A stretch of 64,000 nt of DNA from Sulfurovaceae bacterium (GTDB lineage: Bacteria > Campylobacterota > Campylobacteria > Campylobacterales > Sulfurovaceae). Of this stretch, positions 3,566 to 24,836 are shown one piece after another. The stretch is from positions 289,507-353,506 of the forward strand of contig JAQTLV010000001.1 of assembly GCA_028714675.1 (NCBI GenBank), read 5' to 3'. A program made the translations under genes and the position numbers. How positions within the stretch are numbered: the stretch's first letter is position 1; each line of letters begins with the position of its first letter. The notes beneath the pieces were generated by a model, which ran no database searches, was not told where the DNA came from, and saw nothing but the letters and a program-made list of their open reading frames with translations.

Positions 3566-3811
3566 ATGAATGATGCAGTATTTCAAAAAGTAAAAGATAT
3601 TATTGTAGGACAATTTGAAAAAAATCCAGAAGATATAAGTATGGATAAAACTTTATTGGATGATTTGGGGTTAGATAGTTTAGATATTTTTGATCTTATT
3701 TGTGCATTAGAAGATGAGTATGGATTTCATTTTGAGAGACAAATGGAAAGTTCTATCAATACAGTTGGAGATGTGGTTGCACAAATAGATATTTATCTAT
3801 CTCAAAAATGA
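3566..3811 (+). CDS. Acyl carrier protein 1
   Basis: An 81-residue carrier protein with the phosphopantetheine attachment site at Ser38 in the LGLDSLD motif. Acidic helical sequence and length match the ACP family. It follows the ketosynthase by two bases and overlaps the next gene by four (ATGA). It is one of four carrier proteins in the locus, so it is probably dedicated to aryl polyene assembly, though which chain it carries cannot be told. Confidence 0.92.
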   Translation: MNDAVFQKVKDIIVGQFEKNPEDISMDKTLLDDLGLDSLDIFDLICALEDEYGFHFERQMESSINTVGDVVAQIDIYLSQK

Positions 3812-5055
3812 TTTTCTCTTTACTATATATCATAACTGCTGTAGTAATTTACCACTATGCTGGAGTTAGCACAGCAGGTTTGGTATTGTGCATTATGGGT
3901 ATAGTAAATTTATTTTTTCAAATTTGGAAAAAAAGATACAATTTAGATACTCTTGCTTCGCCATTATTTGCTATAGTACTTGGTATTTGTGCTTTTTTTG
4001 TTTCGGATTTTATTATTATTAAGCTCTATCCATTGTTAATCTCTTTGGTATTTTGGGTATATTTTGTATATGCAGTAATAACAAAAAAATATCCACTTGT
4101 AACTTGGGTTGAAAAATTTAAAAAGAGACAATTATCCAATCAAGAGATGGTAGATATAAAAAAATCTCATTTTTTTTGGGTTATTGTGCTTGGTATAAAT
4201 ACTCTAATACATCTATATCTTGTTTTGTATGGTAGTGTTAACGAGTGGGCTTTATACTCATTTGTTGGTTGGTACTTGTATTTTGGTATAGCAATGGCTA
4301 TTCAACTATCTTTTGTATATTATAAAGTCATTTTTCAGTGGTTAAGAAATATATGGGGTTATGGACTTTTTGTTTTTGTTATCATCATAGCGTTTATATT
4401 TGGGGTATCAAGCTATTATATATTTAAGATTTTGTCAAAACCAAAACCACATGTAATTTTTCAAAGCATTGTTGCCATGATGTTTCGTGTTTTTTTTAGA
4501 AATTCGCCTGGGGTTAAAAAATTATCTTTAATAAAAAGTGATGAGATAAAAAGCGATAAACCTTATATTTATATTGCATCACATCAATCTTGGTTAGATT
4601 ATCCGCTTATGGGAGCATTTATAGTCGATCTATTTCATTTAACAAACAAAAAAAAAGCATTTGTCTGGTATCTTAGATTTACAGCAAGGCTTTTAGGTGT
4701 AATAGATGGCATCGGGAATCAAGCTCTGTATATATTGTTACAAAAATTGAGAAATGGTAGTAATGTGTTGATATTTCCAGAAGGCTCTAGAAGTATTGAT
4801 GGCAAAATAGGAAATTTTAAAAATGGTGCTTTTGCCCTCTCTATAAAATCAGATATTGAAGTAGTGCCAGTATTGATATCTGGGACAAGACTTTTAGTTA
4901 AAAAAGGATCGCTTAATTGGTTGGAAAATAAAAATGTAACCATAGAAGTTAAAATGCTACCACCCATAAAAGCAAACCCATCAGAAGATGTTACAAGTTT
5001 TGCTAATCGTGTAAGAGATATTATGCTTCAGAACCAAAATAATCATAGTGATTAA
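3808..5055 (+). CDS. COG4648-like membrane domain fused to a PlsC-type acyltransferase
   Basis: A 415-residue inner-membrane protein. Residues 1 to about 185 hold several membrane segments and match, by pattern, the COG4648 membrane protein of aryl polyene clusters (YPLLISL, PLVTWVEKF, a Trp-Ala-Leu-Tyr loop). Residues from about 210 onward are a lysophospholipid-acyltransferase (PlsC) domain with the HQSWLD motif (H-x4-D catalytic pair) and the FPEGSRS substrate motif. In many clusters these are two genes; here they appear as one continuous frame. It probably transfers an acyl group, perhaps the finished polyene, to a lipid acceptor. Its 3' end overlaps the convergent acyltransferase gene by 35 bases. 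Confidence 0.82.
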   Translation: MIFSLLYIITAVVIYHYAGVSTAGLVLCIMGIVNLFFQIWKKRYNLDTLASPLFAIVLGICAFFVSDFIIIKLYPLLISLVFWVYFVYAVITKKYPLVTWVEKFKKRQLSNQEMVDIKKSHFFWVIVLGINTLIHLYLVLYGSVNEWALYSFVGWYLYFGIAMAIQLSFVYYKVIFQWLRNIWGYGLFVFVIIIAFIFGVSSYYIFKILSKPKPHVIFQSIVAMMFRVFFRNSPGVKKLSLIKSDEIKSDKPYIYIASHQSWLDYPLMGAFIVDLFHLTNKKKAFVWYLRFTARLLGVIDGIGNQALYILLQKLRNGSNVLIFPEGSRSIDGKIGNFKNGAFALSIKSDIEVVPVLISGTRLLVKKGSLNWLENKNVTIEVKMLPPIKANPSEDVTSFANRVRDIMLQNQNNHSD

Positions 5056-5917
5056 ACCATTGATCTGGGTATTGTTTAACAATTTTTTCCATCAAGTCTG
5101 CATATTTTTGAGCAACATTTGATATAGCATCTTTTTTAGCCATAGAATAATCAAATGGAGTTAGAGTATAATAAAATGAATCATACTTATAAGTACCAAT
5201 TCTAAGTGTAAATATAGCAACAAGAGGCACCTTCCTGTTGTAAGCTACTTCAAAAGGATTTTTATTTATCCTTATTTTTTTACCTAAAAATTCAACAGGT
5301 ATGCTAGATGGAATACTTAAATATCTATCTGCCATCATGGCTACAATTTCTCTGTTTTGTAATGCTTTTGCTATTTTAAAGGCTACGGCTATCTGACCTT
5401 CACTCAAATCGATTATTTTCATTTCATTTATATTTTCATCTTTGATAGATTTTTCAAATGATTGAATACTCTGTTTTGTAATCTCTTCCATTACGATATT
5501 TATAGGAACATTTTTTTGCGTCAAGACATTGCCACCCAAAGCCCAGTCACCTATATGCGAGGATAAAAAAATTATGCCATTATTTTCAAGATTAATAAGT
5601 TTTAGATTGTGGATACTAATCTGATAGCGAGATAGATATCTTTTACTAAACATTCTATCAGACACAACCAAAGCAAATGTGTAAATATGTTTATAGTATA
5701 TAAAAAAATTAAATTTGCCAGTATTGAGGAGATAATATTCTTTTAAATGTTTTTTTAGTTTAGGCGTAGTTAGTGTAAAATAAAGCACTACAAAAAACAG
5801 AACTACATAAAGTCCAACATATCCAAAAATTTTAAAAAAAAGATATACTATAAAAACACCAACCCCACTGCCTCTTTGTTTTGTTTTTATCCATTTTTTA
5901 TCATCTATATCTTGCAT
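5021..5917 (-). CDS. LpxL/HtrB-like acyltransferase
   Basis: A lipid A acyltransferase-family membrane protein of about 298 residues. An N-terminal hydrophobic anchor follows the motif K-x-K-x-RGS, and the catalytic His-Asp pair is in SSHIGDWALGG. The reading frame runs open to an ATG at 5965, but the ATG at 5917 is preferred because family members begin shortly before the Trp-x3-K-x-RG motif. Such acyltransferases occur in aryl polyene and flexirubin clusters and are thought to attach or mature the lipid part. It is on the opposite strand to the core genes and overlaps the PlsC fusion gene tail to tail, but its type fits the locus. Confidence 0.8.
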   Translation of the reverse strand: MQDIDDKKWIKTKQRGSGVGVFIVYLFFKIFGYVGLYVVLFFVVLYFTLTTPKLKKHLKEYYLLNTGKFNFFIYYKHIYTFALVVSDRMFSKRYLSRYQISIHNLKLINLENNGIIFLSSHIGDWALGGNVLTQKNVPINIVMEEITKQSIQSFEKSIKDENINEMKIIDLSEGQIAVAFKIAKALQNREIVAMMADRYLSIPSSIPVEFLGKKIRINKNPFEVAYNRKVPLVAIFTLRIGTYKYDSFYYTLTPFDYSMAKKDAISNVAQKYADLMEKIVKQYPDQWFNHYDYFGSEA

Positions 5918-6078
5918 TTTGCCCGTTTTATTTTTTATACTAATTTTATCATACTTTTTTATCATACTTTATAAAAACAAAGTCTATTTTGATATTATTA
6001 TATATCTAAAATAATATAATAATTTTAAAATAAAAATAATTAGCAATAGTTGGTAAATATGTTTTTAAAAGGCTTTGA
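5918..6078. promoter_or_regulatory. Divergent intergenic region, AT-rich
   Basis: This spacer separates the leftward acyltransferase from the rightward PAP2 gene and must hold promoters for one or both. It is almost entirely A and T, with several TATAAT-like hexamers between 5990 and 6030, so no single -10 box can be assigned. No hairpin or operator-like repeat stands out. Confidence 0.4.
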
Positions 6079-7616: not shown

Positions 7617-7736
7617 TGAATTATTATATCAAAAAACAATGTATAAAATAGAGGTATCAAAATGCATTTAGCAACTAAAAAGATAATAGTAGATACAATT
7701 ATATTAATTATTAATCAAGCAAAATCGGAGAGTTAT

Positions 7737-7991
7737 ATGGTAGATTATAGGACAATAAAAGAGCAGCTCATAGAAGCATTACAATTAGAGGACATTACGG
7801 CAGATGAAATAAATGATGATGCACCTCTTTTTTCAGAAGGTCTTGGACTAGATTCTGTTGATGCAATTGAGCTTGTAATTTTTTTAGATAATAACTATGG
7901 TATAAAAATGGACAACATAGGCCAATCTAGAGAAATTTTTACATCTATTCGTACGATGACAGATTATGTTAATCAAAATGCTAGCGTATAG
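7737..7991 (+). CDS. Acyl carrier protein 2
   Basis: An 84-residue carrier protein with the phosphopantetheine serine at position 40 (GLGLDSVDA). The frame is open upstream to an ATG at 7662, but the 25 extra residues are unlike any ACP, and a GGAG ribosome-binding site lies seven bases before the ATG at 7737, which fixes the start. It leads the segment containing the ABC transporter genes. Confidence 0.9.
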   Translation: MVDYRTIKEQLIEALQLEDITADEINDDAPLFSEGLGLDSVDAIELVIFLDNNYGIKMDNIGQSREIFTSIRTMTDYVNQNASV

Positions 7992-11629: not shown

Positions 11630-12022
11630 ATGAAGGTAAGAGTATATTACGAAGATACTGATGCTATGGGCATAGTATATCATGCCAATTATTTCAAATT
11701 TTGCGAAAGAGCCAGAAGTGAATTGTTTTTGGATATGGGCATTGATATGAAAAATGAAAAAGGCTTTTTGGTTGTGAAAACCATAGAAGCAAATTATATC
11801 AAACCAGCATATTTGGGAGATATTTTAGAACTTGATCAAAGCGTTGATACTTTGCGTAAAAGTTCTGTTGTGGTAAAGCAAAATATATACTGTAAAAATG
11901 AAAAAATATTTGAACTTCGTATAAGATTGGTGTACATAGAAGATATGATACCAGCAATTATGCCAGACAAATACTATAACTTTTTTGAAGAGTATAATAA
12001 AAATTTTAAGGACAATCAATGA
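11630..12022 (+). CDS. Acyl-CoA/ACP thioesterase, YbgC-like hotdog
   Basis: A 130-residue 4-hydroxybenzoyl-CoA thioesterase-family protein. The signature YEDTDAMGIVYHANY with the catalytic Asp at residue 11 is at the N terminus, as in YbgC. It would hydrolyse thioesters and probably edits or releases chains from ACP, like ApeK in aryl polyene clusters. It overlaps ACP 4 by four bases. Confidence 0.9.
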   Translation: MKVRVYYEDTDAMGIVYHANYFKFCERARSELFLDMGIDMKNEKGFLVVKTIEANYIKPAYLGDILELDQSVDTLRKSSVVVKQNIYCKNEKIFELRIRLVYIEDMIPAIMPDKYYNFFEEYNKNFKDNQ

Positions 12023-12285
12023 GTGGTTCGCAAGATATAGATTTTAAAAATGAATTAAAATCAATGATAATTCAAGTGTGTGAAAAAGATATTGACATCA
12101 ATGATATTGATGATAATTCGGCACTTTTTGGAGCAAATACAGTATTGCAATTGGACTCATTGGACGCCTTGCAACTTTCAATGGAAGTTCAAAAAAGATA
12201 TGGGATTATTTTACCAGATAGTAAGGCATTTAGAAAAGCTTTTTCATCGATTAATGCATTTGCAGATTTTATAAAGTCAAATTAA
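12019..12285 (+). CDS. Acyl carrier protein 4
   Basis: An 88-residue carrier protein with the phosphopantetheine serine at position 47 (LQLDSLDA). It overlaps the thioesterase start-to-stop (ATGA) and is followed four bases later by a ketosynthase/chain-length-factor pair, so it is the likely carrier of the elongating polyene. The order ACP-KS-CLF resembles the elongation core of aryl polyene systems (ApeE/F with ApeO and ApeC). Confidence 0.9.
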   Translation: MSGSQDIDFKNELKSMIIQVCEKDIDINDIDDNSALFGANTVLQLDSLDALQLSMEVQKRYGIILPDSKAFRKAFSSINAFADFIKSN

Positions 12286-15850: not shown

Positions 15851-17969
15851 ACGAATACGCTTTTTATTAGTAGCGTTTATAATTATATTTTTAGGGATTG
15901 TTTTTTTATGGAAGTATCCTCCAGTTGGAGATATATCAAAGGCATTGCCAAATGATGATGCCATAAAGGTATTGGATGATTATAATCGCTTCAATTCTTC
16001 CAAAAAACTATTTATATTAGTTAAAGGTTTTAATGATGCTTCCTTGAACAAGGCAAACAAGATTAGCAAAGAGCTTTCATCTTTGTCCCAGGTAGAAAAT
16101 GTATATTTTGATATGGATATAGATAGTGATACAAAAGAGTATTTTTCTAAAAGTTGGTACTATTTTTCTGACTTTGATAGTTCTGTAAAATCTTTTGAGC
16201 AGGTAAAGCAAAAATTAAAAAATCTATCAGATCAAATGATGAGTGGAGATGTTTATACTCCACTAAATACGGATGATCCTATGGGGTTATTTTCTCAACC
16301 AACATTTATACAAAGTGCAAATCAAGATGGAAAATTAATAGTTCCAAACAAAGGTTACTGCATCATAGCTTCTATTCGCCCATCAGTTGGTGATATGGAA
16401 AAATCTACTATTTTATACAATGAAGTTAAATCAACTTTTGATAAATATGGCGATAGTATCATTGTATATAGCCCAAATTTTTATAGTGTAGAAAATTCAG
16501 CATATATTAGTAATGATATTCACAAGATAACTATAATTACCATTATAATATTGATATCAGTTTATTTCTTTTTATTGAGAACAAAAGTGATGTTGCTTTT
16601 TAGTATGACAACGCTTTTTGTCTCTGCCCTTATCGCTGTTTTAGTTTTAAGAGTGTTTTTTGACGATGTGTCTATATTGGTTGTCGCATTTGGAGCCAGT
16701 ATAGCGACAATAGCAGAAGATTATCTTTTCATGTTGTTTTTAAATGACGATTATAAGCATAAGAGATTTAATAAACAAGTTTTTTGGGGCTTTATAGCAA
16801 CAATCTTTGGATTATTTGTTTTAAGTTTTATATCATTTCCACTTATATCGCAACTCGCTATTTTTGCTCTAGTATCACTTAGTATTTCCTATGTAATATT
16901 TGCATTTATTTTTCCTAAACTAGAATTTTATAGCAAGGAAAATAAAGAGATACAATTGACACATAATTTTAACAGGTATGCCAAAATACCACCTATTTTG
17001 ATTACTATTATTTCTATAATTTTAATACTAATTTCCATACCTAGACTAAATTTTGATTCAAATTTTAGAAATCTTGATTATCAAAATATTCCACTCTTAG
17101 AAGCTGAAAAGATGTTTGAACAATCTTTGGGCGAAAGTAGAATGCCTGTTTTGATTTATGGTAAAAGCAGAGAAGATTTACTAGAAAAATCAAAGGAAAT
17201 TCGTAAACTTTTGCCAACAAGCTATACAGTTGCCAATGTTTCTTTGAGTGGTAAAGATGCTAAAAATAGATATGATATTTTGAAAAACTACAACTTTGAT
17301 TTACTTAACAAAAATATAGAAAAAGCATCAAAAGAAGTAGGATTTAGAGATGGAACATTTGCCAATAGCTATAATGGTATAAAAAATATTTCTACATATA
17401 ACTTTGATGATAAAGTAATTAATAAATTGGGTTTTGAAATTATAAAAACAGATAGAGGATATATGACTTTGGGCTACATAATGCCAAATGATAAAAAATA
17501 CATTGAAAATATGCCATCGGTCTTGGTTATAGACTCTAAATATCTACTTTCTTATAGTGCGAACAAGGCACTATCTTCTTTTAAACTATTTTTCATTATA
17601 GGTTTTATTGGGTTGGTGGCATTGATTGTATTTGTAGTGCGTAAAAGATTTCTGTATGCACTAAATTTTTTATTTTTTCCAACGGCTTTGGTGTTGAGTA
17701 TGTTTGCAATGATTGGTAATTTTAATCTTATGCATATTTTTGCGTTATTTTTAATGATGATTTATGGCATTGATTATGGCATATATCTCGCAAATGATAA
17801 GCTTGGCAACTCAATGCGAGCTGTTTTTTATTCTTGTATGACAACTTTTGCTGGATTTGGTATATTGTCACTTAGTAGTGTCCCAGCTGTTTATTCTATG
17901 GGATATGTAAGTATTGTGGCAATTCTTGCTATATTGATACTATTTTTCCAAAAAAAAGAGAGAGGTTGA
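15831..17969 (+). CDS. MMPL/RND-family exporter
   Basis: A 712-residue membrane protein with the MMPL layout: one helix near residues 10-28, a periplasmic domain to about 220, five helices to about 365, then the same pattern repeated to the C terminus. It corresponds to ApeM, the inner-membrane exporter of aryl polyenes. It begins with TTG inside the LolA-like gene; no in-frame ATG lies nearby. The ligase gene follows directly. Confidence 0.88.
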   Translation: MKLQYRERIRFLLVAFIIIFLGIVFLWKYPPVGDISKALPNDDAIKVLDDYNRFNSSKKLFILVKGFNDASLNKANKISKELSSLSQVENVYFDMDIDSDTKEYFSKSWYYFSDFDSSVKSFEQVKQKLKNLSDQMMSGDVYTPLNTDDPMGLFSQPTFIQSANQDGKLIVPNKGYCIIASIRPSVGDMEKSTILYNEVKSTFDKYGDSIIVYSPNFYSVENSAYISNDIHKITIITIIILISVYFFLLRTKVMLLFSMTTLFVSALIAVLVLRVFFDDVSILVVAFGASIATIAEDYLFMLFLNDDYKHKRFNKQVFWGFIATIFGLFVLSFISFPLISQLAIFALVSLSISYVIFAFIFPKLEFYSKENKEIQLTHNFNRYAKIPPILITIISIILILISIPRLNFDSNFRNLDYQNIPLLEAEKMFEQSLGESRMPVLIYGKSREDLLEKSKEIRKLLPTSYTVANVSLSGKDAKNRYDILKNYNFDLLNKNIEKASKEVGFRDGTFANSYNGIKNISTYNFDDKVINKLGFEIIKTDRGYMTLGYIMPNDKKYIENMPSVLVIDSKYLLSYSANKALSSFKLFFIIGFIGLVALIVFVVRKRFLYALNFLFFPTALVLSMFAMIGNFNLMHIFALFLMMIYGIDYGIYLANDKLGNSMRAVFYSCMTTFAGFGILSLSSVPAVYSMGYVSIVAILAILILFFQKKERG

Positions 17970-17971
17970 TT

Positions 17972-19201
17972 TTGGCAAATATAATTTTTATTGATCAAAA
18001 TAATAATACACAAACACAAGAAATATATTTGGATATGCAAAATACTAACAATAAAAATTCTGCATTTACAGTACCAGATAATAGTCATAAAGTTACTCAA
18101 TTATATGAGATAACAAAGTCAATAACTGATGGAAATATACCTATACTTTTTGATGATGCTATGAGTTCAAGCAGACAAAAAGGTTTGGAGTTGTCAAAAA
18201 AAACAGTTTTTGAGTACAAAGATGAGCTTAAAGATGCAATTGCCATTTTATTTACATCTGGCACTAGTGGAAATCCAATAGGTACTGTAAAAACAAAAGA
18301 TAATATCATTGCTGAGACGCAAGTGCATCTAGATTGGTTAAAAAACTATAAGTTTGAGCAATGTTTAGTAACAGTACCATTTTTCCATATTTATGGATTT
18401 TTATTTGGAGTAAGTATACCATTGGCTATGAATTTAGATATCGTTACTAAGGAGCATTTTCTGCCTCACGAAATTATAGATATATGTACAAAAAAACCGA
18501 CTTTATGTATAACTAGTCCAGTATTTATTAGATCTATGTTGCGTACAAATAACAATGTCAGCTTAGAACAAACAATTTTTATCTGTTCAAGTGGGGCATT
18601 AGAGAGTTTTGAGGCAGAAGAATTTGAAAAATTGCACAAAACTACTTTGGTGCAATTATATGGTTCGACTGAAACGGGAGGCATTGCTATAAGAAGACAC
18701 AATGATATCCATTGGCATCCTTTAAAAAATATATCTTTGCATAAACACAACGAAGGATTACTGCAAGTTTCATCTCCATTTATATCACCACATATTTATA
18801 ACAATGGATTGTTTACAAAAAATTCTTTACCATTTACACTATCAGATATTATTGAACTCGAAAAAGATAAATTCTCTATTCTTGGTAGAAGCGGCGAGAT
18901 TGCTAAGCTTGGAGGGAAAAGACTGTCTTTGATAGAGATTGAAAAGACATTAGAGAGCATTAATGGTATTGATGAAGCATTGGTTCAAATAGAGTATTCA
19001 CCAAAAAAATTACGGGGCGAAACATTAACTCTATTTTTAGTTGGAGATGAAACAAAAGCTGAAAAATCTACTATAAAGAAATTATTACATGAATATTTTG
19101 GCGGTATTCATATTGAGAATAAAATTACTTTTATAGATAGCATACCCAAAACAGCTATAGGTAAAAAAGTAAGAGTGCCATTTGGCATAAAGAAGGTTTA
19201 G
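17972..19201 (+). CDS. Acyl/aryl-ACP ligase, AMP-binding family
   Basis: About 409 residues, shorter than usual for the ANL superfamily. Motifs are FTSGTSGNPIG (phosphate loop, near residue 95), QLYGSTETGG (near 230), and the C-terminal catalytic Lys region PKTAIGKKVR. It would adenylate an aryl acid such as coumarate and load it onto ACP, like ApeH. A TTG at 17966 overlaps the upstream stop; the TTG at 17972 is preferred because an AGAGAGG site lies six bases before it. Its stop codon shares the bases TTAG with the stop of the convergent dehydratase. Confidence 0.86.
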   Translation: MANIIFIDQNNNTQTQEIYLDMQNTNNKNSAFTVPDNSHKVTQLYEITKSITDGNIPILFDDAMSSSRQKGLELSKKTVFEYKDELKDAIAILFTSGTSGNPIGTVKTKDNIIAETQVHLDWLKNYKFEQCLVTVPFFHIYGFLFGVSIPLAMNLDIVTKEHFLPHEIIDICTKKPTLCITSPVFIRSMLRTNNNVSLEQTIFICSSGALESFEAEEFEKLHKTTLVQLYGSTETGGIAIRRHNDIHWHPLKNISLHKHNEGLLQVSSPFISPHIYNNGLFTKNSLPFTLSDIIELEKDKFSILGRSGEIAKLGGKRLSLIEIEKTLESINGIDEALVQIEYSPKKLRGETLTLFLVGDETKAEKSTIKKLLHEYFGGIHIENKITFIDSIPKTAIGKKVRVPFGIKKV

Positions 19202-19627: not shown

Positions 19628-20545
19628 ATGAAAAAAAGAGTTTTGGTTTTGCATTATTCGCAAACAGGGCAACTAACTAATGTGCTAGAAAACATGATAG
19701 CACCATTGAAGAGTGCAAAAAATATTGAAGTAGTAATGACCAAAATAGAATCTACTGAAAATTTCTCTTTTCCTTGGAGTTTTTTTAAGTTCTTTGATGC
19801 TTTTCCAGAAACTGTTTATTTAGATGGGCCTAGAAATAAATCACTAGATATTGCAAATATAGACTTTGATCTCATTATCATTGGATATCAGCCTTGGTTC
19901 TTGTCTCCTTCTATGCCTATGTCATCTTTTATGAAGTCAGATGAAGCCAAAATAATTCTAAAAGATAAACCAGTTATTACTGTAATTGGGTGTAGAAATA
20001 TGTGGATAGAGGCACAAAAAACTATGAAAGAGTTGATAGAAAAATGTGATTCTAGGCTCATAGATAATGTTGTTTTAACTGATCAAAGTGGACCGTTAGA
20101 GAGTTTCGTTACAACTCCTAGATGGATGCTTACAGGCAAGAAAGATGCATTTTATGGATTGTCACCTGCTGGAATAAATGCCCAAGACATTAAAAAAAGT
20201 AGTCGTTTTGGAGAAAGAATTTTAGAAAAATTAAATGCAAATGCAGAAAAAAAAGACGAACCAATGCTCACGAACTTAGGTGCAGTTAAAGCTGACGATA
20301 GATTTGTATTTTCTGAAAAGATAGCAAAAAGAAGTTTTAGAATATGGGGGAAACTAATTAGACTTTTTGGCAAAAGAGGTGCGATTGCACGCAGACCAAT
20401 AGTGGTTATATATGTTGCATTTTTATTTACGCTTATAATAACTGTGGTACCCATTAACATGATGGTTCAAACACTACTTCGCCGCGTGTTTAAAGAAAAA
20501 AATGATAAAATACTTATAGAAATAGAAAAACCCTCTGGTAGATAA
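19628..20545 (+). CDS. darA: DarA-like dialkylresorcinol condensing enzyme/aromatase
   Basis: A 305-residue protein beginning with a flavodoxin-like strand and phosphate loop (VLVLHYSQTGQL, residues 5-16), with a hydrophobic helix near residues 257-280. This start pattern and length match the DarA family of dialkylresorcinol pathways, which turns the cyclohexanedione made by DarB into the aromatic resorcinol. It is directly followed by the DarB gene, the conserved pairing. The flavin-fold N terminus fits an oxidative role, but the exact chemistry is taken from the family. Confidence 0.85.
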   Translation: MKKRVLVLHYSQTGQLTNVLENMIAPLKSAKNIEVVMTKIESTENFSFPWSFFKFFDAFPETVYLDGPRNKSLDIANIDFDLIIIGYQPWFLSPSMPMSSFMKSDEAKIILKDKPVITVIGCRNMWIEAQKTMKELIEKCDSRLIDNVVLTDQSGPLESFVTTPRWMLTGKKDAFYGLSPAGINAQDIKKSSRFGERILEKLNANAEKKDEPMLTNLGAVKADDRFVFSEKIAKRSFRIWGKLIRLFGKRGAIARRPIVVIYVAFLFTLIITVVPINMMVQTLLRRVFKEKNDKILIEIEKPSGR

Positions 20546-20559
20546 AGTAAGTTTAAAAT

Positions 20560-21705
20560 ATGAATAATAGTGTGTATATTACAAGGATATCGTCATTTTT
20601 GCCAAACAATCCAGTCAATAATGACAAAATAGAGGATGTGCTTGGATGTATTGATGGGAAAAAATCTCGTGCAAAAAATATAGTATTAAAAAGCAATGGA
20701 ATAAAACAGCGTTATTATGTTTTAGATCCAAAAACTCGTAAGCCTTTGTATTCCAATGCTTCTATGACAGCAAAAGCTGTAGAATCATTGATAGATGAAA
20801 CTATACCATTATCATCTATTACATGCTTAGCATGTGGAACAACCACGCCTGATTACTTGATGCCAAACCATGCACTTATTACTCAAGGTGAATTGGGACT
20901 TACAGGATGTGAAGCTATAGCTACATCTGGAATTTGTTTAAGTGGAATTACTGCTATGAAGTATGCTTATATGGCAATATCTTGTGGCGAACATCAAAGA
21001 GCAGTTTGTACTGGTTCTGAAGTAGTTTCTTTGATGATGAGAGCTGAAATGTTTGAAAAAGAATCAAAAGATGCATTATCGATTCAAGAGAAACCAGAGT
21101 TGGCATTTGGGAAAGATTTTTTAAGATGGATGCTTTCAGATGGAGCAGGGGCAATGTTGCTCGAAGCAAACTCAAATACTTCTAACATATCATTAAAGGT
21201 TAATTGGATTGATATGCTTTCTTATGCTGGAGAAATGCCAACTTGCATGGTAGCAGGCGCTTATAAAACAGAAGATGGATTTTATCAGCCGTGGAAAGAG
21301 TTAACTCCTGTTGAATTTATATCAAAGAATGTATTTGCAATTGAACAAGATGTCAAACTTTTAAATGAAAATATTATTCTCTATACAGTAGAAAAACCAT
21401 TAAAAGAGATAGTTGAAAAACACAAATTAAATATGGATGACATTGATTTTTTTCTTCCACATTATTCTTCAGAATATTTCCGAGATAAACTTTTTCAAAG
21501 TATGAAAAATATTGGATTTGAGATACCACAAAATAAATGGTTTACAAACCTTACGACAAAAGGCAATACAGGAAGTGCTTCCATGTATATCATACTTGAA
21601 GAGTTGTTTAATTCTGGTAAATTATCCAAGGGACAAAAGCTGTTGTGCTATATACCAGAAAGCGGTAGATTTTCGACCGCATTCATGCTTTTAGAGGTAG
21701 TATAA
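20560..21705 (+). CDS. darB: DarB-like ketosynthase (KAS III type)
   Basis: A 381-residue FabH-like ketosynthase. Cys126 is the nucleophile (SGICLSG), His lies in LPHYSSEYF and Asn in FTNLTTKGNTGS, completing the KAS III triad. The N-terminal segment (YITRISSFLPN-PV-ND) is characteristic of DarB proteins. DarB joins two acyl thioesters, a beta-ketoacyl and an enoyl chain, through a Claisen then a Michael-type step to give a cyclohexanedione. Spaced 14 bases after darA. Confidence 0.9.
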   Translation: MNNSVYITRISSFLPNNPVNNDKIEDVLGCIDGKKSRAKNIVLKSNGIKQRYYVLDPKTRKPLYSNASMTAKAVESLIDETIPLSSITCLACGTTTPDYLMPNHALITQGELGLTGCEAIATSGICLSGITAMKYAYMAISCGEHQRAVCTGSEVVSLMMRAEMFEKESKDALSIQEKPELAFGKDFLRWMLSDGAGAMLLEANSNTSNISLKVNWIDMLSYAGEMPTCMVAGAYKTEDGFYQPWKELTPVEFISKNVFAIEQDVKLLNENIILYTVEKPLKEIVEKHKLNMDDIDFFLPHYSSEYFRDKLFQSMKNIGFEIPQNKWFTNLTTKGNTGSASMYIILEELFNSGKLSKGQKLLCYIPESGRFSTAFMLLEVV

Positions 21706-22110
21706 ATGAAACAAACCGAAGTACCTCAAGATAATACTGATATATTAAATGGCGTAAGAAAAGCACTATATGCTTTTGATGACAATGGAGAATGTGTAAT
21801 AACTCCAAGTAGTGGATGGTCTGTTGAAGAGATGGCAACTATGCAAGCAGTTGAAGAATTTAAAAGATTAGAAAAAGAGGCATATTTAGGATTTTTAAAC
21901 AAAGATGTTTCTCCTTTGACAGTATGGATGTATAGATGCCGTATGAGCATACCAACTTTGGCAAGTTGTATGGGGTATTGGCAATGGAAGGTTAAATCAC
22001 ATATGAAATATAATAATTTTAAAAAACTAAAACCAAAAGTACTGGAATTGTATTCACAAACTTTGAACATTTCACTAGAGCAGCTTCTTAACCCTAAAGA
22101 GTGTATATAA
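21706..22110 (+). CDS. Small conserved dar-associated protein, HTH-like C-terminal half
   Basis: A 134-residue soluble protein with no signal peptide or membrane segment. Residues from about 60 are helical; the region around 75-105 (MSIPTLASCMGYWQWKVK) has the spacing of a helix-turn-helix. I do not recognise a named family with certainty, though a protein of this size follows darB in flexirubin-type loci as I recall them. It starts immediately after the darB stop and its stop overlaps the next ATG, so it is co-translated with dar genes. A DNA-binding or a pathway-scaffold role are both possible. Confidence 0.75.
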   Translation: MKQTEVPQDNTDILNGVRKALYAFDDNGECVITPSSGWSVEEMATMQAVEEFKRLEKEAYLGFLNKDVSPLTVWMYRCRMSIPTLASCMGYWQWKVKSHMKYNNFKKLKPKVLELYSQTLNISLEQLLNPKECI

Positions 22111-23096
22111 TGAGTAACTTTACGCATAAACACTCAGCACATTGTGAAAGTGGCGTTATATCTTCACTATTAACACATAATGGTTTTAGCATGAGTGAAG
22201 CTATGGCATTTGGCATAGGCAATGGTTTATCGTTTGCATATCTTCCAATGGTAAAGATAGATGGTATGCCTCTTGTTGCATATCGCATGCCTCCTAGAGG
22301 GATAATTAAGACTCTTACAAAAAGACTTGGAATTACTCTTGACATAAAGAGATATTCAAATCCAAAAAAAGCACAAGATGAACTTATAAACATGATAGAT
22401 GATGGTAAGATTGTTGGGCTTCAAACATCTGTTTATTGGTTGCCATATTTTCCTACTGAAATGAGATTTCATTTTAATGCACATAATCTTATAGTTTATG
22501 GGAAAAATGAAGATAGCTTTTTGATAGGAGATCCTGTTTTTGAGCATACTGTTAGTGCATCTTTTGATGATTTAACAAAAGCAAGATTTGCTAAAGGTGT
22601 TTTTGCTCCAAAAGGTGCTTGTTATACTATTAAAAATATGCCAACAAATATTGATTTGCCAAAAGCAATCAAAAAGTCAATCAAGCATACGACAGGAATG
22701 ATGCTCAATAGTTTTATACCATGGGTTGGTATTCGTGGTATGAAAAAGATGAAAAAAGTAATTTTAGGATTACCAAAGCAACCTAAAAAATATGCTTCAT
22801 TATATTTAGGACATATAATTAGAATGCAAGAAGAGATTGGTACTGGTGGCGGAGGATTTAGGCTTATGTATGCCGCATTTTTGTCAGAAGCAGCTATACT
22901 ACTGAAAAACGAAGATTTAAAGGCTGCATCGCAAATGATGGGCAATGTGGGTGATGCTTGGAGGCGTTTTGCACTAAGTGCTTCACAGGCTTGTAGAGGT
23001 GGAGATTATAATGTTAATGAAATAGCTGCTACCCTACAAGAAGCTATAGATTTAGAAGAAGATACATATAGGTTTTTACGAGGTTTAAAACTGTGA
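22110..23096 (+). CDS. BtrH-like acyltransferase candidate (BtrH_N plus DUF4872-like)
   Basis: A 328-residue cytoplasmic protein. The N-terminal half looks like the BtrH domain, a papain-like fold: a Cys at residue 12 in HCESG, a His in HFNAHNLIVYG near 130 and an Asp in GDPVF near 145 could make a catalytic triad. The C-terminal half is helical, like DUF4872. BtrH moves an acyl group from a carrier protein to an amine in butirosin synthesis. The ATG at 22110 overlaps the preceding stop (TAATG); a GTG nine bases upstream is less likely. It could link polyene acid to the resorcinol. Confidence 0.8.
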   Translation: MSNFTHKHSAHCESGVISSLLTHNGFSMSEAMAFGIGNGLSFAYLPMVKIDGMPLVAYRMPPRGIIKTLTKRLGITLDIKRYSNPKKAQDELINMIDDGKIVGLQTSVYWLPYFPTEMRFHFNAHNLIVYGKNEDSFLIGDPVFEHTVSASFDDLTKARFAKGVFAPKGACYTIKNMPTNIDLPKAIKKSIKHTTGMMLNSFIPWVGIRGMKKMKKVILGLPKQPKKYASLYLGHIIRMQEEIGTGGGGFRLMYAAFLSEAAILLKNEDLKAASQMMGNVGDAWRRFALSASQACRGGDYNVNEIAATLQEAIDLEEDTYRFLRGLKL

Positions 23097-24205
23097 AGCA
23101 TGAAGTTTGGTTGACTTCTATGAGCGCATCTTGTGCTGCTGGATTAACGATAGAAGATATATATACTAAACTACTAAGCGGCAGTACTGCCATCTCTATG
23201 CAAGATAAATACATAGATAATATGATAGTTCCATTAGGGAAAATACCAAGCCAAATTGATTTTTATGAATTGATATATCAAAATGTTGCTACTGCATTAT
23301 CTAAAATATCCGAATTTGACTGTAGTGATACTCTTGTTTTGATTGGATCATCTGTGGGTGGTATGGGTAGAGCCGAGAGAAGTTATTTTACATATCATGA
23401 TTGTACGCACACAAGCATAGAAGAGTTAGCTATAGGCTCTATTGGTAAAAATCTAAAAAATAAGTTTGGTTTTAAAGATGCCATATCTTTTTCTACAGCA
23501 TGCACTAGTAGTTCAATGGCTATTGATTTTGCATTTGATTTGATACGATTCGGTAAGGCAAAAAATGTAGTTGTAGTTGGTGCAGATGAACTTAGCAGAA
23601 GTGCTGTAAATGGTTTTTGGCGGTTAGGTATAGGTTCAACGAATATAACTCGTCCTTTTGATGAATATAGAGATGGAATCAATGTAGGAGAAGGAATAGG
23701 TGTTATTGTGCTTTCAAATACTCCAAATGAACATAAAATAGCAATACTTGGATGCGGAACAACAAGTGATGCTTATAATATCACTCATCCTCACCCAGAA
23801 GGGAAAGGTGCATTGGGTGCTATGAAACAAGCTTTGCAAAAAGCATCTTTAGAGCCAAATGATATTGATTATATAAATGCACATGGAACTGGTACTGTAG
23901 CTAATGATGAAACAGAGGGAATGGCAATAGAAAAGATATTTGGGAATAGACCACTTGTATCATCTACTAAATCTGTAACTGGGCACACCTTGGGAGCTTG
24001 TGGGACATTGGAGATAGCTATTTGTGCTATGAGCATTATCCATGGGACTATTCCACCATCAATTGGCATATCAAATCCAATATCACATGATATAAACTTA
24101 GCACTAAAACCCATAAAGTCTAATCCAAAATTTGTACTTTCAAACGCATTTGGTTTTGGCGGTGGCAATGTGTCTATAATTTTAGGAAAAATAGATGTCG
24201 ATTAA
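23093..24205 (+). CDS. Beta-ketoacyl synthase, KS of KS/CLF pair B
   Basis: A 370-residue ketosynthase with Cys137 (STACTSSS), NAHGTGT and KSVTGHTLGA, so the catalytic set is complete. It begins with GTG overlapping the preceding TGA and overlaps the next, CLF-like gene by 11 bases. As the pair sits at the end of the dar segment, it may make the beta-ketoacyl substrate for DarB, separate from pair A that serves the polyene. That division of labour is inference. Confidence 0.88.
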   Translation: MKHEVWLTSMSASCAAGLTIEDIYTKLLSGSTAISMQDKYIDNMIVPLGKIPSQIDFYELIYQNVATALSKISEFDCSDTLVLIGSSVGGMGRAERSYFTYHDCTHTSIEELAIGSIGKNLKNKFGFKDAISFSTACTSSSMAIDFAFDLIRFGKAKNVVVVGADELSRSAVNGFWRLGIGSTNITRPFDEYRDGINVGEGIGVIVLSNTPNEHKIAILGCGTTSDAYNITHPHPEGKGALGAMKQALQKASLEPNDIDYINAHGTGTVANDETEGMAIEKIFGNRPLVSSTKSVTGHTLGACGTLEIAICAMSIIHGTIPPSIGISNPISHDINLALKPIKSNPKFVLSNAFGFGGGNVSIILGKIDVD

Positions 24206-24836
24206 TCTTGAAATATTGGTAATAAAATCAATAGAAGATGATGAAAAAATATTTAATCTAAATGAAAAAGATATAGTTTCAGATATGATGCTTCGTAGAA
24301 GACTTACTCGCAATGCTCGTATTGCTCTATATTTGACAGATTTATTAGATGCATGGGATATGCCAGTAGTCATAGGGAGTGCTTTTGGTGAAGTGGTAGA
24401 AACTTTTGAAATCATTCGTTCTATTGATATGTCACAAACCGTAAGCCCAACACATTTTCAAAATTCTGTTCATAATACACCTGCGTCATATCTATCAATC
24501 GTTGGAAACAACACAGGATATATTACTACGGTATCAGATATTGAAAATACAGCCGATTGTGTGCTTAGCGTTGGGGCTGTAAAATCTATGGAGTACGATA
24601 AATTACTTTTGATAGTTGTTGATGCTATGGGTTTTGATTGTTTTGATGATTTGAACAAATGTGGAGTAACTAAAAAAGAGTTTGGTGTAGCTATGGTAGT
24701 TCAACAAACATCCAAAGCCCCAACTATAACATTAGAACAGCAGAAATTTGTGGGGTATTCACCTAGCGTTTGGCCCATGCTTGAAATTATGAAAAAACTA
24801 TCTGATATAGAAAATATAATACAGATAAAAATATAA
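24195..24836 (+). CDS. Chain-length-factor-like protein of KS/CLF pair B
   Basis: A 213-residue, N-terminal-half ketosynthase homologue of the Ketoacyl-synt_2 type. SPTHFQNSVHN near residue 85 is typical of this family; no nucleophilic Cys is present at the expected site (the sequence there reads TTVSDIENTA or nearby). It would pair with the KS whose gene it overlaps. Shorter than its counterpart of pair A (261 residues). Last gene of the locus; a terminator hairpin overlaps its stop codon. Confidence 0.82.
   Translation: MSINLEILVIKSIEDDEKIFNLNEKDIVSDMMLRRRLTRNARIALYLTDLLDAWDMPVVIGSAFGEVVETFEIIRSIDMSQTVSPTHFQNSVHNTPASYLSIVGNNTGYITTVSDIENTADCVLSVGAVKSMEYDKLLLIVVDAMGFDCFDDLNKCGVTKKEFGVAMVVQQTSKAPTITLEQQKFVGYSPSVWPMLEIMKKLSDIENIIQIKI

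Follow-up and report, generated by a model that had tools for sequence, protein, structure and literature searches.

Flexirubins are widespread pigments that are used in classifying Bacteroidota. A 2014 gene list for Azoarcus BH72 gives azo0290 (darE) as a 'BtrH-like peptidase' with no role, and the pigment of this strain, arcuflavin, is predicted to be an ester of a polyene and a dialkylresorcinol (PMC3949708). Extracts of Azoarcus contain no free resorcinol, yet the Azoarcus Dar proteins make resorcinol in E. coli (PMC3949708). In P. chlororaphis, free dialkylresorcinol is made from darABC with darSR, two regulators, and the described locus has no DarH gene, the counterpart of Azoarcus darE (PMC6403133). 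Heterologous expression of darA and darB from C. pinensis also yields the free resorcinol moiety (PMC3992019). Because free resorcinol is obtained from these two gene sets, DarH is dispensable for ring formation. The authors of the C. pinensis study assigned the joining of the two pigment halves to the ligase-like protein FlxW, an assignment that is speculative (PMC3992019), and in E. coli, ApeD and ApeJ have been proposed to attach the polyene to lipid (PMC8253772).

We analyzed a stretch of 64,000 nucleotides of DNA from a Sulfurovaceae bacterium (the window), in which the following features bear on pigment synthesis:

128-1648, + strand: aromatic amino acid lyase (TAL-like), predicted to supply the polyene starter (PF00221, E 4.8e-143)
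3808-5055, + strand: PlsC-domain fusion protein (PF01553), a rival candidate for the joining step
5021-5965, - strand: LpxL-like acyltransferase (PF03279), a rival candidate for the joining step
7662-7991, + strand: acyl carrier protein of the polyene type, possible acyl donor (PF00550; ACP2 matches in dar and polyene-only loci)
11630-12022: 4HBT thioesterase-family protein
12019-12285, + strand: DarC-like acyl carrier protein, judged by synteny, and possible partner (PF00550; beside a KS_D homologue in dar loci)
17966-19201, + strand: AMP-dependent ligase, probably activating the aromatic starter (PF00501; TIGR02372 4-coumarate-CoA ligase below cut-off)
19628-20545, + strand: DarA, dialkylresorcinol condensing/aromatising protein (in the sampled dar loci, the orthologue lies immediately upstream of darB)
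20560-21705, + strand: DarB, KASIII-like dialkylresorcinol cyclase (NCBIfam StlD/DarB family, 583 bits, cut-off 450)
21706-22110, + strand: DarG family protein, Azoarcus DarD, 134 aa (NCBIfam NF053536 DarG_fam, 137 bits, cut-off 70)
22110-23096, + strand: DarH, Azoarcus DarE, BtrH-related papain-fold acyltransferase of 328 aa, proposed polyenoyl-ACP:dialkylresorcinol O-acyltransferase (Pfam, NCBIfam, triad and structural matches)
23093-24205, + strand: aryl-polyene type ketosynthase, the KS of pair B (matches to both Pfam ketoacyl-synt domains, N and C)
24195-24836, + strand: CLF of pair B (Ketoacyl-synt_2), which served as our aryl-polyene marker (PF13723, E 1.8e-20)

The order darA-darB-darG-darH in the window is that of darA-darB-darD-darE in Azoarcus, and arcuflavin is of the same ester type (PMC3949708). 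The 2 loci differ in that the Azoarcus genes are followed by ABC genes and the polyene starter is a hydroxybenzoate, whereas the window has the KS/CLF pair immediately after darH and encodes an aromatic amino acid lyase. DarA was named by synteny with Azoarcus darA because Pfam and NCBIfam profiles gave no match of its own. The darH reading frame is intact, from an ATG at 22110 to a TGA ending at 23096 on the + strand; an alternative GTG start at 22101 would add 3 residues. The gene had been placed between the dar genes and KS/CLF pair B in translational overlap, and this is borne out at both ends: the TAA of darG (22108-22110) and the ATG of darH (22110-22112) have 1 base in common (TAATG), and the TGA of darH (23094-23096) and the start region of the KS gene (GTG, 23093-23095) overlap by 4 bases (GTGA). 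DarH thus lies downstream of darA, darB and darG and upstream of the KS/CLF pair. Nearly all dar loci have DarG alongside DarB and DarH, either of which it could partner.

The gene content also bears on the C. pinensis proposal, in which a ligase-like enzyme (FlxW) would activate the polyene acid in its free form and couple it to the resorcinol (PMC3992019). The annotated part of the window has a single AMP-binding protein, which is needed for the starter. Likewise, the Azoarcus gene table (Table 1) contains one AMP-binding protein, ArcT, which is active on 3-hydroxybenzoate, and the arcuflavin ester is still predicted (PMC3949708). We consider a ligase highly improbable as the joining enzyme.

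Family searches placed the window protein in a curated family. Its Pfam domains are BtrH_N (residues 11-142, E 2.4e-48) and DUF4872 (residues 153-321, E 6.5e-50), both of which are found in members of the BtrH_N family, and it matches the NCBIfam equivalog NF053550, 'BtrH-related acyltransferase DarH', with 457.3 bits (cut-off 300) over model positions 1-324 of 325. As in the dar loci of NF053550 members, DarG and DarB are encoded alongside, and we found no difference between the window protein and this family. The genome also holds darA, darB and an aryl-polyene KS/CLF pair together, the combination that marks a locus for a polyene-dialkylresorcinol ester (flexirubin/arcuflavin). We therefore count darH as a known gene, since it is a member of NF053550 and equals Azoarcus darE by gene order; judged from its sequence, the window gene encodes DarH, an already catalogued protein of a known type of pigment locus. 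The first-pass annotation had described a BtrH-like protein: the 2 domains confirm the likeness, but the protein is not an unassigned relative, as it belongs to the curated family DarH. It is a known family member with a predicted role and no new kind of system. Our literature search found neither an experimental function for DarH nor a test of polyene-resorcinol joining by it, and returned no text on DUF4872 and no paper describing the NCBIfam naming of DarH.

We then determined the distribution of DarH in 397 genomes of Campylobacterota (the phylum of the window), 398 of Pseudomonadota and 293 of Pseudomonadales. In Campylobacterota, the 22 genomes (of 397) that encode a PF14399 protein are exactly those that encode DarB, while genomes without dar have no PF14399; in the 1.75-Mb genome of the window, DarH is the only PF14399 protein. 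DarB, DarG and DarH are adjacent in 20 of the 22 dar genomes, the contig ending at the dar locus in G364 and the locus being rearranged in G232, with DarH on another contig. Orthologous darA-darB pairs (at least 49% identity to the window DarB) are present in 13 of the 398 Pseudomonadota genomes, and all 13 have PF14399, with DarH located about 1 kb further along in G409 and present only as a fragment in G670. Seven Pseudomonadota carry distant DarB-like proteins (31-41%) that have no DarA, DarG or DarH alongside, and no PF14399 was found anywhere in these genomes; G777, which bears one distant DarB copy as well, was counted among the 13. In Pseudomonadales, DarA is present in 10 of 293 genomes, DarB-DarG in all 10, and PF14399 in all 6 that were new, the other 4 being already among the 13 Pseudomonadota. 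Altogether, the DarH gene was found in 41/41 sampled darA-darB genomes, counts that are not independent because related genomes have common ancestry. A genome-contig scan with DarB gave only 2 close relatives, and a viral-contig scan with the DarH alignment gave no match.

The aryl-polyene marker PF13723 follows the same pattern, being present in 35/35 dar genomes tested, 0/10 dar-negative Campylobacterota and 1/10 dar-negative Pseudomonadota. No PF14399 was found in 4 polyene-only genomes in which PF13723 is present (G568, G594, G748 and G406). Our sample held no genome with darAB that lacks the polyene marker, and that contrast is provided by the published P. chlororaphis locus. DarH is present together with resorcinol and polyene genes and absent with either alone, indicating that it belongs where both halves are made. 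Since the whole dar module, including the ABC pair, ACP and KS, co-occurs as well, co-occurrence alone cannot single out the reaction of DarH.

The same genomes bear on 2 further proteins, the PlsC fusion and the LpxL-like protein, which the first-pass annotation had named as rivals and either of which might make the ester in a manner comparable to E. coli ApeD and ApeJ. Both are acyltransferase-family proteins with matches in polyene loci, and polyene with impaired attachment accumulates in apeD and apeJ mutants (PMC8253772); homologues of both, however, occur where no resorcinol is made, which fits a role in lipid attachment. The dar genomes G219, G388 and G364, which are 98-100% complete and have the rest of the genes, contain no orthologue of the LpxL-like protein, and their best matches are no better than those in the dar-negative G139 and G250. 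Because it is missing from 3 near-complete dar genomes, the LpxL-like protein cannot be the general joining enzyme. For the PlsC fusion, the dar genomes G394 and G232 have weak or partial matches and no full-length orthologue. This protein is poorly conserved, with weak matches in other dar genomes as well and weak or partial ones in the Pseudomonadota tested, so its absence is less certain, and by these comparisons its candidacy is only weakened. Of the 2 rivals, the LpxL-like protein therefore falls and the PlsC fusion loses ground, and we regard an ester made by either of them as unlikely. The 2 genes are convergent (PlsC fusion +, LpxL-like -, 3808-5965) with a 35-base overlap, and in some relatives each half of the PlsC fusion has its match in an ORF of its own.

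To assess the active site of DarH, we aligned 41 family members, 34 dar-linked and 7 other. The predicted catalytic residues are encoded as follows:

22143-22145, + strand: codon (TGT) of Cys12, predicted nucleophile, in the HCESG motif (invariant in the 41 aligned members)
22482-22484, + strand: codon of His125, predicted catalytic base (invariant; aligned with CtaG H128)
22530-22532, + strand: codon of Asp141, third predicted triad residue (34/34 dar-linked and 6/7 other members; aligned with CtaG D144)

H11, C12, R59, Y113, H125, E241, G244-T245-G246-G247, F250 and R251 are invariant in the 41 proteins, and D141 is kept in 40. In a set of 26 family members that includes non-dar relatives (approximately 20% to 30% identical), Cys12 and His125 are also invariant and Asp141 is present in at least 90%. 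The HCESG motif at Cys12 is specific to the dar-linked members, the others having HCGS, HCET or HCAS. The plausible Cys-His-Asp triad noted earlier is accordingly a conserved one whose residues align with those of solved relatives. When DarH is aligned to CtaG by profile, H125 and D141 correspond to construct residues 134 and 150, with a spacing of 16 in both proteins; these would be H128 and D144 if the construct carries a tag offset of 6 residues, and H128 and D144 are residues mutated in deposited structure variants.

In the tree, the dar-linked proteins form one group (support 99/98), within which the window DarH is on a rather long branch. Five genomes of the same genus were sampled, of which G139, G250, G251 and G313 have no dar genes and G364 does, and the window DarH does not group in the tree with this sole same-genus copy (L016). 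The lack of dar in 4 of the 5 genomes together with this separation suggests that the dar locus of the window may have been gained separately.

An AlphaFold model of DarH was made from 3 input sequences (pLDDT 65, pTM 0.68). Residues 1-11, 106-125 (<50) and 141-146, which surround the active site, have low pLDDT. In this low-confidence model, Cys12 begins a helix (residues 12-23), His125 begins a strand and Asp141 directly follows the next one, an order that tentatively corresponds to the papain arrangement. The top full-length structural matches of the model (VIA-align) were AziU3 (Z 16.1), CtaG (Z 14.4) and CcbD (Z 13.1), and Foldseek returned AziU3 (E 1.8e-7) and CtaG (E 3.7e-6). We gave more weight to the full-length span of these matches than to their Z values because the helical C-terminal domain, taken by itself, finds unrelated bundles too. 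Searching the PDB with the DarH sequence alone gave chance matches only, while profile searches reached AziU3 and, weakly, CtaG.

CtaG of Ruminiclostridium cellulolyticum is, like DarH, a BtrH_N protein, and its C11A, H128A and D144N structures correspond to C12, H125 and D141. It differs in pathway (closthioamide) and acceptor and is approximately 14% identical to DarH. CcbD is a carrier-protein-dependent ping-pong acyltransferase (PMC12945683) that has a Cys-His-acid triad like DarH and takes its acyl donor from a carrier protein; it differs from DarH in having Glu as the third residue, forms an amide onto an amino-sugar in celesticetin biosynthesis and is approximately 12% identical. BtrH of butirosin biosynthesis is an acyl carrier protein:aminoglycoside acyltransferase (PMC10318531), which has the BtrH_N domain in common with DarH and whose acceptor is an aminoglycoside amine.

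The same fold and triad would be capable of hydrolysis, and DarH could be an ACP-directed thioesterase or editing enzyme that releases the polyene acid or stalled chains, the ester being made by another enzyme. A non-dar BtrH/DUF4872 protein on the Acinetobacter baumannii plasmid NZ_CP040051.1 (L073, 7980-8951) adjoins 2 PaaI-type thioesterases, with P450 genes near. Against this, polyene-only loci function without any BtrH-like gene, so that polyene release or editing alone needs no DarH; moreover, the window already encodes a 4HBT thioesterase-family protein, and BtrH and CcbD are transferases. We judge a thioesterase function of DarH quite unlikely. A protease function was set aside, as the described BtrH relatives are acyltransferases and the locus offers no evident peptide substrate.

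Our plasmid searches found BtrH/DUF4872 proteins outside dar loci, as well as orphan DarB-like genes in Bacteroidota; neither group has a direct bearing on DarH function. Matches were reported on 45 Acinetobacter plasmids. An archaeal BtrH/DUF4872 protein on the Haladaptatus plasmid NZ_CP085306.1 (L075, 7995-8975) lies among kynureninase, indoleamine dioxygenase and benzoate-CoA ligase genes, which suggests a CoA-linked acyl substrate. The orphan DarB-like ketosynthase genes, on Bacteroides ovatus and Prevotella nigrescens plasmids (L070, L071), are next to a regulator of the HTH or TetR type, and their surroundings contain no annotated DarA or DarH.

The explanation that we favor, and consider probable, is that DarH, as a BtrH-family enzyme, moves the ACP-bound aryl polyene via Cys12 to a hydroxyl of the dialkylresorcinol, giving the ester. 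DarH combines a papain-like N-terminal domain with the helical DUF4872 C-terminal domain. The aryl-polyene chain, finished on an acyl carrier protein, would be transferred to Cys12 as a thioester, and one of the phenolic hydroxyls of the dialkylresorcinol, activated by His125-Asp141, would accept the chain in ester linkage to form the flexirubin-type pigment. Of this, the analysis shows the family, the relationship in fold, the conserved triad and the presence alongside both pathway halves; an ACP-bound donor, a resorcinol as acceptor and the ester chemistry are predictions. Genes for acyl carrier proteins, the putative carriers of the acyl donor, are present in the locus. The characterized relatives documented here, BtrH and CcbD, form amides and not aryl esters, which speaks against the ester reading; even so, we find it fairly likely that DarH is a papain-fold maker of aryl esters, working by a ping-pong mechanism from the polyene carrier protein to a phenol. 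The first-pass proposal of this protein as a candidate for the joining step is strengthened by its presence with darAB in all 41 sampled dar genomes, its lack where only polyene or only resorcinol is made, and the triad match, and from genome comparison DarH is the best candidate for joining the 2 halves of the flexirubin-type pigment.

The co-occurrence of DarH with both pathway halves and the loss of the LpxL-like gene from 3 dar genomes bring the question of the joining enzyme within reach of a test on one gene. If the proposed reaction is true, DarH would fill the joining step of flexirubin-type pigments, and the BtrH family, which is documented here for amide formation, would be extended to O-acylation. 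DarH would then also serve in genome surveys as a marker that distinguishes joined pigments from dialkylresorcinols that stay free and from plain aryl polyenes.
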